From the NCBI RefSeq assembly GCF_014201375.1, contig NZ_JACHDZ010000002.1:186001-250000 (forward strand): DNA of 64,000 bases, written 5' to 3'. Made by a program: the position numbers and the translations under genes. Positions 42,202 through 46,058 of the stretch are shown here, piece after piece. Origin of the DNA: Tunturiibacter empetritectus (GTDB lineage: Bacteria > Acidobacteriota > Terriglobia > Terriglobales > Acidobacteriaceae). Below the pieces are notes generated by a model that worked only from the letters and a program-made list of their open reading frames with translations, was not told the origin of the DNA and did not search any database. Within the stretch, counting starts at the first letter, position 1; every line of letters starts with the position of its first letter.

Positions 42202-42393
42202 ATGAAGAAAACCTGTTTCTTACTCGCCGGCATCGCCCTCCTCTCTTCCGTCGCCCTCCCGCTGCACGCTCAAGACGGTTGCGTGAACTCTCCGGAGAAT
42301 CCGACAGCCATTCTCGCTGTTGTAGGCTCCGCAGGTGCATTTTTCGTTTCGGTACGCGCTCGCATCAAGGCTCGTCGCAACTCTTCCAAGTAA
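42202..42393 (+). CDS. PExPT-CTERM sorting-signal peptide, probable exosortase substrate
   Basis: 63 residues from the ATG at 42202 with GAGGA upstream. It has a signal peptide (MKKTCFLLAGIALLSSVALP, cleavage near HAQ-D), then only DGCVNS, then PENPT, a hydrophobic stretch (AILAVVGSAGAFFVSV) and a basic tail (RARIKARRNSSK). This is the tripartite layout of PEP-CTERM-like exosortase targets, in the PExPT variant. Almost nothing lies between the two targeting signals. The exosortase gene is 61 bases downstream on the same strand, so the two are a dedicated pair. Function of the processed peptide is unknown. Confidence 0.8.
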   Translation: MKKTCFLLAGIALLSSVALPLHAQDGCVNSPENPTAILAVVGSAGAFFVSVRARIKARRNSSK

Positions 42394-42454
42394 GCCGCCC
42401 CTGGGACTTGCCACCTGATACTCCCCTGGTGCGCTGGCCTGGATCAAAGACCGC

Positions 42455-44113
42455 ATGTCAACTTTACCTGCTACCGCTGAAGTCAGCCCACTCCGATCGG
42501 CTGGGGCGGAGGGGCTAAGCCTGCCCCGGGCCGCAGGATTCGCGGCGATTGTCGCGGTGCTCGGTCTATCGACCATCTTTTCGACCGTGAGCGCTCTTTG
42601 GAATCTTTGGACTACGGATGCTCTCAAGTCGATTGGGATGTTCATTCCGCTGGTCAGCTTTGTGCTGGTTCTAAGGGCATGGCGCTCAATTGGATGGGAG
42701 ATGGAGGGCAGCTGGTGGGGCCTGGTCGTTCTGGTGGTCACGGCGGTGGTCGTGCATATCCGGGACCAGGCGGTTCTGGTGTTCGTGTTCTCGCCGAAGT
42801 GGTCGATTTACATTCCACCTCACTCGCTTGTGGCCTTCGCGTATGGCGCGGGGGTGGTCCTGCTGTTTGGCGGGAGACGGCTTTTCCGGGCTTCGCTGTT
42901 TCCGCTTATCCTGCTGTGGTTTGTCAATCCGATTCCTCACATCTTTAATGTATTTGTCGATTTGCCGTTGCAGCGCGCCTCGGCCCATGTCGCTCGCGCT
43001 TTTGCGATTGCTTTGGGCCAGCCACTGAGCCCGGACCAGCTTCGACTGATGTTCACCCCGGAGTTCGGCATGTTCATCGCTCCCGGATGCAATGGAATTC
43101 GTGGCGCGGTCACTATGGGATTCATTGCGCTGATCGCGGGCTACGTGTATCGCTTTCGCTGGTATGCGCATGCTGCGGTGGTGGCCGGTGCGGTCCTGCT
43201 GGGCTACGTCTTCAACTTTGCCCGGCTGTGCATTCTGGTTCTGTATTACATCGTGGCGCTGCACATCCCTACTCTGCGGAGCAAGGCTGAGATGGGGGAT
43301 TATGTGATTGGGGCATGCCTCTTTCTTCTGGGCACCTTTCTTCTTTTCCACGTTGTCCGCCGTCTGAGCGAGTCGCCGGGCCAGATCAAGCCTCCTTCTC
43401 TGAATTCGTCTTCTTCGGTTGGCGCAGTCGCGGGACGATCTTTCTATCTCCGTTTTGCCGGAATGCTTGCGCTGGTGCTGATCAGTTGCTATGGGGTGGC
43501 GCGCGGCTATGTGAGCACGCACAGCGGTAGCGCCGCTGCTCAGAGAAAGGCCGATCAGAACGCGCCTGGGCAGTTCCCCGAGCGGATCGGTGGCTACACC
43601 CTGGCGCGTACCTGGAACGAGAATCTCTTCACCGGTCCGCTGATCTATCATTGGGCCGAGTACGCTCCGGCAGATGGTGGAGCGCATGTGTCGATCGGGA
43701 TTTCGCCGGTGATGGGGTCGCACGATACGCTGATCTGCCACTCGGCGCGTGGGGAGGATCCGATCTGGCGGGACCAGCTCTCGATGCCCACGGCGAACGG
43801 ACCGATTGGTTTTTCGGGCTCCTTCTTCAACGACGGCGCGACGCAATATCTTGAGGCAACGACCATCTGCAATAGCGGTTCGTGCGGGGAGTATTCGAGC
43901 GACCGTACCCACTTCGGCTTCGTCTACAGCAAGCCGACCTCTCAGTCGCTGTTATCGCAGGAGGCCCAGCGCCCCATCCCGATCCTGCTGAAGGTCGAGA
44001 CGATCGACACAACGATGCCGGTGGAGATGGCGCGACGGCAGCTAACGACAGATCTTCGCTCCTTCCTTGGCTCGGTGGATCTGGACGGACTCACGAAGCC
44101 TTACCGGCAGTAA
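42455..44113 (+). CDS. xrtJ: Exosortase with C-terminal EpsI-like domain (XrtJ type)
   Basis: 552 residues. About eight membrane helices in the first 310 residues form the exosortase core, with catalytic Cys212 in APGCNGIRG and Arg257 in FNFARLCILV. After one more helix (FAGMLALVLISCYGVARGY) an EpsI-like domain of about 170 residues follows. Exosortases cleave C-terminal sorting signals and attach or release the protein at the cell surface. The gene next to it encodes a PExPT-CTERM peptide, the partnership I recall for acidobacterial exosortase J. The symbol rests on that match and not on a search. Confidence 0.82.
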   Translation: MSTLPATAEVSPLRSAGAEGLSLPRAAGFAAIVAVLGLSTIFSTVSALWNLWTTDALKSIGMFIPLVSFVLVLRAWRSIGWEMEGSWWGLVVLVVTAVVVHIRDQAVLVFVFSPKWSIYIPPHSLVAFAYGAGVVLLFGGRRLFRASLFPLILLWFVNPIPHIFNVFVDLPLQRASAHVARAFAIALGQPLSPDQLRLMFTPEFGMFIAPGCNGIRGAVTMGFIALIAGYVYRFRWYAHAAVVAGAVLLGYVFNFARLCILVLYYIVALHIPTLRSKAEMGDYVIGACLFLLGTFLLFHVVRRLSESPGQIKPPSLNSSSSVGAVAGRSFYLRFAGMLALVLISCYGVARGYVSTHSGSAAAQRKADQNAPGQFPERIGGYTLARTWNENLFTGPLIYHWAEYAPADGGAHVSIGISPVMGSHDTLICHSARGEDPIWRDQLSMPTANGPIGFSGSFFNDGATQYLEATTICNSGSCGEYSSDRTHFGFVYSKPTSQSLLSQEAQRPIPILLKVETIDTTMPVEMARRQLTTDLRSFLGSVDLDGLTKPYRQ

Positions 44114-44147
44114 ACTGCATTCAGCTTTTGATACTTTGGGCCATCCA

Positions 44148-46058
44148 GTGAGATTACTTTTGCGCAACTTTCAGGGACTTTTCAGCGCGGCGATGGTCGG
44201 GATTCTGGCTTGCTCGCTTGCGGGATGCGGGGGCGGCTCGACTCCGACTCAGCCGCCACCACCCCCGCCTCCTCCACCACCACCGCCCACTAATCCTGGC
44301 GTGAGTTTTTCAGGAAAAGCGATGGCGGGTTCTCTGCCGATTGTCGGAGCGGCCGTCCAGCTTTATGCGGCTGGAACTGGCGGAAATGGCTCGGCCTCGA
44401 CGTCTTTGCTTGCGAGCGCACCAACCACCGATGCGAGCGGGTCATTTTCCGTGGCTGCCGGGTATTCCTGTCCCGCTGCCGCCTCGGAGATCTACGTCGT
44501 GGCTCGCGGTGGACAGGTCGGAGGCGCTCCCAACAACTCTGCGATTACCCTTGCGAGCGCGCTCGGCGGATGCAATCAGATTACGGCGGGAGCTCAGTTT
44601 GTGGTTAACGAGGTGACGACGGCGGTTACTGCCTGGGGGCTCGCCCAGTTCTTTGGCACCGAGGGCAATCTTGGGGCGAGTTCGACCAATGCCCAGGGAT
44701 TGGCCAATGCTGTGGCCACGGTGGCGAATCTCGTGAACCTCACAAAGGGGTCCGCGCCGGGGACGGCTTTTCCCTCTACCGGAGACTCTACGGTGGCGGT
44801 AAAGAAGATCAATATGGTTGCTGACCTTCTCAATAACTGCACGGCCACGGCGTCAGGGTGCGGCGCGCTCTTCTCCGCGACTACGCCGAATGGCGGGACG
44901 GCTCCAACCAATACGCTAGATGCGGTTCTGAATATTGTGCGCAATCCAGGGAGTAATGTTGCCACACTGTTTGCGCAGCTTCCGGTCAGCGGCGCGCCGT
45001 TTTCACCGGTACTCTCTGCGGTGCCGGCGGACTGGACTCTGTACATCAGCTACCATGGCGGGGGTATCGGCGATGGGGTGCCACTCGATAGTAAGTCGCC
45101 GTCCGGTCTGGGCGTGGACGCTGCCGGCAATCTTTGGGTTTCGACCTACTCGGGCGTTGCGTCTGAGTTTTCGACGACGGGCACTCCACTCTTTTCGGCT
45201 GGCATTACGGGCGGCGGACTTATCGCCTCGGATGCGCTTGCCGTGGATCCGCAGGGAAATATCTGGATTCCGGATGGAGGGAGTTCCGGGGTCAATGGCG
45301 GTTTTGGCAGCGTGACCGAGCTTAGTTCGAGCGGCCAGGTGCTCTCGGGCGCAACGGGATACAGTGCCGGTGGGATTAGTTATCCGACGGCGATCGCGAT
45401 CGATCCGAATGGGACGGTGTGGATTCCGGACTATGGAAACTCTCGGGTCACTCTGCTTTCAAGCGCCGGTCAACCGCTCTCGGGCACAAACGGATATCAG
45501 TCGCTGCAGTTCAGTTTTCCGCTTGCGGTCGCTATCGATTCCAATCATTACGGGTGGGTGGCTAACTTTGGCAACGATACCGTTAGCAAGGTCTCCGCTG
45601 ATGGGAGCCACATTACCAGCTTCCCGAGTGTCGGCGGCCCGGACGGTATTGCGGTTGATCAACGCGGCCACGTATGGGTCGCGAATCAGATAGGTAACAG
45701 CATCACTGAGCTTGCGAACGATGGAACTCTGGTCTCGAGCGGCTATAGCGATAACAAGGCTAGCATCCTCGCTCCGCAAGGGATCGCAATCGATGGGTCG
45801 GGTCATGTGTGGGTCGCAAACCTGCATAGTCACACCATAACGGAGCTGGCGGGTTCGGCTGCCGCTTCACCCGGCGCGATTTTGTCTCCGACCGCAGGTT
45901 ATGCGTCGGATGCCGGGTTCATTGAGGCCTATGCGATTGTGGTTGATGCCAGTGGCAATCTGTGGGTGACGGACTTCAACAACGGTACGCTCACGGAGAT
46001 CGTTGGGCTGGCGACGCCTGTGAAGACTCCTGTGCTGGGGCCACCACAGACGCCTTAG
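44148..46058 (+). CDS. Lipoprotein with NHL-type beta-propeller
   Basis: About 636 residues from the GTG at 44148; a longer frame overlaps xrtJ. A lipoprotein signal ends in ACSLAGC, followed by Gly/Ser/Thr and a run of prolines as linker. Residues of about 65-310 are an Ala/Gly/Thr-rich domain (SFSGKAMAGSLPIVGAAVQLYAA) resembling carboxypeptidase-regulatory-like parts. The C-terminal half has at least six blades of NHL/SMP-30 type, each with VWIPDYGN-, VWVANQIGN- or LWVTDFNN-like ends. It is probably outer-membrane or periplasmic and binds ligands or proteins. It lies 34 bases after xrtJ and may be part of the sorting cassette. Confidence 0.82.
   Translation: MRLLLRNFQGLFSAAMVGILACSLAGCGGGSTPTQPPPPPPPPPPPPTNPGVSFSGKAMAGSLPIVGAAVQLYAAGTGGNGSASTSLLASAPTTDASGSFSVAAGYSCPAAASEIYVVARGGQVGGAPNNSAITLASALGGCNQITAGAQFVVNEVTTAVTAWGLAQFFGTEGNLGASSTNAQGLANAVATVANLVNLTKGSAPGTAFPSTGDSTVAVKKINMVADLLNNCTATASGCGALFSATTPNGGTAPTNTLDAVLNIVRNPGSNVATLFAQLPVSGAPFSPVLSAVPADWTLYISYHGGGIGDGVPLDSKSPSGLGVDAAGNLWVSTYSGVASEFSTTGTPLFSAGITGGGLIASDALAVDPQGNIWIPDGGSSGVNGGFGSVTELSSSGQVLSGATGYSAGGISYPTAIAIDPNGTVWIPDYGNSRVTLLSSAGQPLSGTNGYQSLQFSFPLAVAIDSNHYGWVANFGNDTVSKVSADGSHITSFPSVGGPDGIAVDQRGHVWVANQIGNSITELANDGTLVSSGYSDNKASILAPQGIAIDGSGHVWVANLHSHTITELAGSAAASPGAILSPTAGYASDAGFIEAYAIVVDASGNLWVTDFNNGTLTEIVGLATPVKTPVLGPPQTP

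Follow-up and report, generated by a model that had tools for sequence, protein, structure and literature searches.

The window analysed here, the whole stretch of 64,000 nucleotides of Tunturiibacter empetritectus DNA, contains at positions 42202-46058 of the + strand three co-directional genes that encode a small peptide, an exosortase and the product of a long open reading frame (ORF). Judged from the sequences, the exosortase, XrtJ, probably turns a substrate that carries no cargo into a tiny cysteine-containing peptide that would serve beta-propeller lipoproteins. A preliminary description of this locus had reported the same three genes and had proposed that the peptide may be a signal, a lipid or sugar acceptor or a regulator of the enzyme; the three-gene observation was confirmed, but this interpretation was supported in part only. 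The features of the locus are the following:

42202..42393, + strand: PExPT-CTERM micro-substrate of 63 amino acids (aa); TIGR04200, 90.6 bits
42274..42306, + strand: D-G-C-V-N-S-P-E-N-P-T, the Cys-PExPT stretch after presumed removal of the signal peptide; from sequence and conservation
42455..44113, + strand: exosortase J (XrtJ), 552 aa; TIGR04199, 687 bits; PF09721, 113 bits; alignment of 21 sequences
44148..46058, + strand: NHL/Vgb-like beta-propeller lipoprotein, 636 aa from a GTG start; PF01436 NHL and others, alignment and model

The peptide gene runs from an ATG at 42202, with GAGGA upstream, to a stop at 42393 and is translated as MKKTCFLLAGIALLSSVALPLHAQDGCVNSPENPTAILAVVGSAGAFFVSVRARIKARRNSSK (63 aa). 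It matches the NCBIfam family TIGR04200 (targ_of_XrtJ, 'PExPT-CTERM protein') with 90.6 bits against a cut-off of 40, and the PEP-CTERM Pfam model PF07589 was absent among its matches up to E=1. It consists of a signal peptide, DGCVNS, PENPT, a transmembrane helix and a basic tail, of which the signal peptide, the helix and the tail were assigned by inspection. From the likely signal peptidase I site, between LHA and Q, to PENPT there are only 6-7 residues, which agrees with the earlier claim that almost nothing separates the signal peptide from the sorting domain. That an in-frame upstream extension or another, longer PExPT protein could be the true substrate had been raised in the preliminary description. 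Neither was found: the sole upstream in-frame start is a TTG four codons earlier, and the genome has one TIGR04200 match over the cut-off, a search at E up to 10 giving five weak matches of which none is target-like.

The conservation of the cysteine and of the motif, a check proposed in the preliminary description, was assessed in 89 unique peptides, gathered from loci that searches with the peptide model or independent searches with XrtJ had found. Seventeen loci were excluded as weak, unrelated or duplicate matches, and PENPS forms lie outside the set, as its regular expression needs PE.PT; one member (L185) has no clear signal peptide. The cysteine is located four residues before the first proline of PExPT in 87 of the 89 peptides, five residues before it in one and is absent from one, and it is thus as fixed as the motif itself, which reads PENPT in 76, PEAPT in five, PEDPT in five and PECPT in three. 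The preceding residue is serine in 85 and threonine in four, the commonest form of the stub being C-x-[DN]-[ST]-P-E-x-P-T. The peptide without the cysteine (L036, RRRRSPENPT) pairs with an exosortase that scores 142.7 bits as XrtA and 83.2 bits as XrtJ, below both cut-offs. In 21 genes, the window gene included, the uncorrected pN/pS was 0.055 for the nine-mer C-x-x-[ST]-PExPT, 0.12 for the 24 residues after it and 0.69 for the signal peptide. The nine-mer is under strong purifying selection, and the low ratios in nine-mer and tail argue that the ORF is not a chance one. The segment between signal peptide and cysteine varies in length, with insertions such as AQGGEITTGTC; therefore the cysteine belongs to the PExPT signature and not to a lipobox. 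Processing by signal peptidase II at this cysteine was judged unlikely, because there is no lipobox by the signal peptide and the insertions displace the cysteine.

The second gene starts after a gap of 61 bp and encodes an enzyme that matches exosortase J (TIGR04199) over model positions 2-522 of 522 with 687 bits, the cut-off being 200, and PF09721 in Pfam with 113 bits. C212, R216, N254 and R257 were invariant in the alignment of 21 sequences, which bears out the earlier assignment of an exosortase with Cys212 and Arg257; C212, R216 and R257 are presumably the catalytic residues. The C-terminal domain of about 200 aa contains the nearly invariant C472 and C477. It had been called an EpsI-like tail, which holds by position only: no EpsI model was present among the 11 NCBIfam families that matched up to E=1. 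The predicted fold, with a predicted local distance difference test score (pLDDT) of 75, had no PDB match at E<=0.001, and the sequence no PDB relative at E<=0.01. Named strains have an XrtJ with up to 93% identity, and the genome appears to be an Acidobacteriaceae genome close to Edaphobacter lichenicola. In three short forms of XrtJ (L252, L253 and L059) the match stops before the C-terminal domain, and the peptide gene adjoins (L252, L059) or lies elsewhere (L253). Because these short forms still have peptides, the C-terminal domain seems not to be essential for the pairing.

Peptide and enzyme occur together across genomes. In the 62 genomes of the genus the peptide was present in 34 and XrtJ in 32, all of which have the peptide; 28 have neither and two (G493, G509) the peptide alone (Fisher test, 1.2e-15, a descriptive value given shared ancestry). 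G493 is 84% complete. In G509 the flanks of the peptide locus (L132) are syntenic with the window and no propeller was found in the locus; it is possibly a natural enzyme-loss strain. In the family sample of 200 genomes the peptide was found in 17 and an XrtJ-like enzyme in 17 (14 over the cut-off), 16 being shared; in the exception G419 the XrtJ match is a C-terminal piece only. The other exception, G373, was rejected as a natural case of a peptide without its enzyme, since its contig is, over 9.8 kb, 99.98% identical to a contig of G505 from another genus; this contig (the L175/L190 pair, from metagenome-assembled genomes (MAGs) in two genera) is probably mis-binned. In the phylum sample of 297 genomes, 13 exceeded the TIGR04200 cut-off, all within this family. 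Three weak matches outside the family (L019-L021) were below the cut-off and were set aside; L020, read by eye, is DXR-like and hence a chance match. One genome, G456, contains five peptides, each adjoining a propeller gene, and XrtJ as its sole exosortase, which implies that one enzyme serves several micro-substrates, probably in trans. Four findings support the proposal of a dedicated enzyme with a cargo-free substrate: the two genes co-occur, they are adjacent, the peptide is under purifying selection, and the genome has no second TIGR04200 match above the cut-off.

The third ORF was listed from a TTG at 44067 and ends at 46058. A start at the GTG at 44148, which gives the lipobox sequence ILACSLAGC and leaves a gap of 34 bp after XrtJ, is more likely. 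The protein carries NHL repeats (PF01436 and others in Pfam). In an alignment of 25 sequences G26 and C27 of the lipobox LAGC were invariant, as were four further cysteines before the propeller. The model (pLDDT 88) matched virginiamycin B lyase (2z2o, E 4.5e-15) in Foldseek, and also the NHL domains of PknD and TRIM proteins. The third gene product is thus predicted, from lipobox and modelled fold, to be a lipidated beta-propeller protein, and its earlier description as a beta-propeller lipoprotein is sustained by the invariant lipobox, the NHL repeats and the Vgb-like model. A lipobox pattern was found in 81 of 91 propellers.

The neighbourhoods were compared in 65 named XrtJ loci, which do not represent 65 genomes, as some gave two, and some of which end at contig ends. 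A peptide gene was found within 3.5 kb of XrtJ in 50 loci and a propeller gene close to XrtJ or the peptide in 30. The commonest order was peptide-XrtJ-propeller (21 loci). Peptide-propeller-XrtJ occurred in L239, L242 and L250, where XrtJ is 36-38% identical, propeller-peptide-propeller-XrtJ in L240 and propeller-peptide-XrtJ in L125. That the neighbourhoods are rearranged and yet persist argues for function rather than an inherited position.

The propeller was also found beside peptides that are not close to the enzyme. The family and genus samples contain 69 peptides over the cut-off, and 27 of these have no XrtJ match within 3 kb. Among the matches listed, a propeller gene was present within 1 kb of 13 of these 27, with 0.36 expected from propeller density and a P of 2e-18 that assumes independent placement; counted per genome it was 7 of 16 with 0.35 expected (P 1e-8). 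When G373 with its probably mis-binned contig was left out, this became 12 of 26 peptides (P 2e-16) and 6 of 15 genomes (P 4e-7). In this test the propeller of L138 was scored as a miss, and 30 propellers were assumed for each of the four genomes G509, G486, G130 and G518, none of whose peptides has a propeller. A subset of 23 peptides from 13 genomes gave 13 of 23 with 0.26 expected (P 1.6e-20), but this subset was picked after the neighbourhoods had been viewed and the figure for 27 peptides is preferred. The association of the lipoprotein gene with the pair, which the preliminary description had put forward for checking, thus recurs in several gene orders and beside peptides distant from XrtJ.

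Similar loci are present in MAGs with proteobacterial labels. L252 (labelled Deltaproteobacteria) and L253 (labelled Gammaproteobacteria) have a short XrtJ of 264 and 270 bits, matching to about position 271 of 522. No more than about 0.7 kb further on, a protein of 1000 or 1124 aa is encoded that has a lactonase-type propeller and, as judged by eye, a lipobox. In L252 a peptide with GCVVSPENPS (42.8 bits) is encoded just upstream. The genomes from which L253 and L256 (the latter labelled Nevskia) come have six peptide loci. A propeller, lactonase or NHL, was found in the fetched flank of five of them, two of these five carrying an identical peptide sequence. All eight genomes that were searched for the peptide have a TIGR04200 gene over the cut-off, including those of L210 and L256, though no peptide was found beside their XrtJ. 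The propeller link is made more convincing by the fact that a propeller of a different type fills the same place in these MAGs.

Several observations weigh against a tiny peptide that serves propellers. By the test described above 14 of the 27 distant peptides have no propeller within 1 kb, among them those with PECPT in G418, G434 and G130, and duplicated cassettes make the placements in that test not independent. Propeller paralogs are numerous in certain genomes, with at least 30 matches in G202 and at least 30 in G434, so that most are not beside a peptide. Fifteen of the 65 XrtJ loci, some of them cut by contig ends, have no peptide within 3.5 kb; 12, again partly cut, have neither peptide, propeller nor Omp85, and several of the partner-poor loci have neighbours that look like polysaccharide genes. 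In a second lineage, most members of which are labelled Granulicella, XrtJ is followed by a gene for Omp85 and not for a propeller. G509 has an intact peptide and no XrtJ match in its genome. The number of cysteines outside the lipobox is even in 70 of the 81 propellers with a lipobox. A simple disulfide between the peptide cysteine and the propeller is not indicated, given these even counts and the four invariant cysteines.

The sequence of events that we propose is as follows. The Sec pathway would export the peptide, and once the signal peptide had been removed the C-terminal helix would hold the remainder in the inner membrane with a periplasmic stub ending at PExPT. XrtJ would recognise stub, helix and basic tail, and Cys212 would attack near PExPT. 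The helix would be discarded, and the remaining product of about 7-12 residues, which includes the cysteine, would be coupled to an acceptor. The analogy with archaeosortase A makes a lipid, attached to the new C-terminus, the most likely candidate. Gene association suggests that at the outer envelope the processed peptide would act together with N-terminally lipidated propellers; its role could be that of an anchor, an adaptor or an assembly factor. One XrtJ would probably process several peptides in trans, and many of these are encoded beside a propeller gene of their own. A bolder version, which we regard as unlikely, is that of a split exosortase substrate, in which the sorting signal resides in one protein and the cargo in another and the peptide is a reusable surface tether or tag, acting in trans, for diversifying propellers. 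If this were true, one enzyme and several micro-substrates would serve several displayed propellers of the NHL or lactonase type.

In a different scheme the peptide cysteine would be acylated, as proposed for MYXO-CTERM proteins, and XrtJ would trim the helix to leave a tiny lipopeptide anchored via its cysteine and not via its new C-terminus. The fixed position of this residue in 87 of the 89 peptides agrees with acylation, as does the pairing of the sole peptide without it with an enzyme that scores better as XrtA. As there is no lipobox by the signal peptide, the cysteine is displaced by insertions and the enzyme belongs to a family other than the CPBP-type myxosortase, we consider this scheme possible though doubtful. 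The peptide might also stay uncleaved and act as a small subunit of XrtJ in the membrane or as a regulator of this enzyme, for which the tiny size of the peptide, the 61-bp gap and the near-perfect co-occurrence could be taken to speak. In contrast, it has the tripartite architecture of a sorting signal and its strongest constraint is on the recognition nine-mer. Moreover, 27 of the 69 peptides are more than 3 kb from XrtJ, five are found with one exosortase in G456 and an intact one is kept in G509 without XrtJ. This makes a role as subunit quite improbable and weakens the earlier suggestion of a regulator of the enzyme.

A secreted product of 7-12 residues would have the size of a pheromone, but the mature stretch is nearly invariant across genera. 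The idea of a peptide signal, also raised in the preliminary description, gained no support and is given very little credence. Equally little can be given to a relic, a decayed PEP-CTERM gene whose cargo has been lost and which travels with XrtJ. Such an origin would fit the peptide without XrtJ in G509; it is at odds with the purifying selection, with the several copies in some genomes and with the presence of the peptide in every one of the 32 genomes in the genus sample that have XrtJ. The reading of a substrate that is processed by XrtJ and serves propeller lipoproteins is therefore preferred.

TIGR04199 and TIGR04200 are a curated pair, the same as found here, with both genes far above the cut-offs. 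As displayed, the models give the names of enzyme and target alone; the propeller partner, the genomes with several peptides and the cysteine spacing are additions of the present analysis. The exosortase A/PEP-CTERM system (EpsH) shares the PF09721 superfamily and the motif-helix-basic tail of the substrate, but those of its substrates that were read in the window genome carry cargo and that of XrtJ none. PMC11980579 describes for MYXO-CTERM proteins an invariant cysteine before the helix and an Arg-rich tail, as in the XrtJ peptide, proposes acylation of this cysteine, and assigns their processing to myxosortase, a CPBP-family enzyme with typically dozens of targets per genome. The locus is not a myxosortase system, as the adjacent enzyme in the window is an exosortase and not of the CPBP type. 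Attachment of a prenyl lipid by archaeosortase A is indicated by the title of a reference in the same paper. In the GlyGly-CTERM/rhombosortase system a single target encoded beside the enzyme is called a dedicated system in PMC3237569, where enzyme (rhomboid family) and signature motif differ from those of XrtJ. Because the families are curated and dedicated one-target pairs appear in that paper, the pair alone is not new. ScyF-type proteins (NF035926; PMC12188702) resemble the window in that an NHL propeller is linked to an exosortase; there the propeller itself is called PEP-CTERM, whereas in the window the signal has a gene to itself. With 55.8 bits against the NF035926 cut-off of 350, the window propeller is not a member. 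In the open-licence literature the exact family names retrieved only papers on other subjects, as judged by title, and the combination of a cargo-free substrate, a near-invariant cysteine and a recurrent propeller was not found in open-licence papers among the matches listed. This combination is a variant of the exosortase systems.

The substrate has 63 aa, occurs once per genome in this strain, has its own enzyme and would leave a mature part of about 10 residues, small enough for a full readout by mass spectrometry. To our knowledge, the exosortase product that remains on bacterial substrates is not chemically defined; with this minimal dedicated substrate it becomes directly testable. The fixed cysteine and the recurrent surface lipoprotein partner provide concrete hypotheses beyond the family name.

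The window genome has two exosortases over the cut-off. The second one is of the XrtA type (209.4 bits, cut-off 208; L112, L257), is encoded at about 501312-502070 of G000:C1 and is adjoined by a separate EpsI (TIGR02914 match); a nearby ORF reads as a polysaccharide export protein. Fifteen PEP-CTERM tails exceeded the cut-off; the open frames that contain them are 88-331 aa long, and the five proteins that were read have 176-264 aa from the first Met, with cargo and with VPEPSS- or TPEPS-like motifs. Both gene sets imply that an ordinary multi-cargo exosortase and a system with one substrate and no cargo are present in the same cell.

Omp85 was found close to XrtJ in 18 of the 65 loci, none of which also has a propeller. 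Two of the homologs (L218-L237, L245 group), run against Pfam, contain five POTRA stretches and an Omp85 barrel and are BamA-like. Omp85 was rejected as a functional partner, since it occupies the same place in all 18 loci and the single homolog in the window genome (69% identical) is unlinked; the adjacency is probably one inherited position beside a BamA-like gene.

Four loci with a distant XrtJ (34-37% identical; L241, L243, L246 and L249) have no adjoining peptide, and their neighbours look like exopolysaccharide or glycosyl-transfer genes. The peptides with PECPT form a subgroup (L126, L133, L123, L273), none of which adjoins XrtJ. L126 and L133 adjoin polysaccharide-export (SLBB/Poly_export) genes and L123 a nucleotidyl transferase, while L273 is the sole TIGR04200 match in the genome behind L210, in which XrtJ adjoins a propeller and not a peptide.

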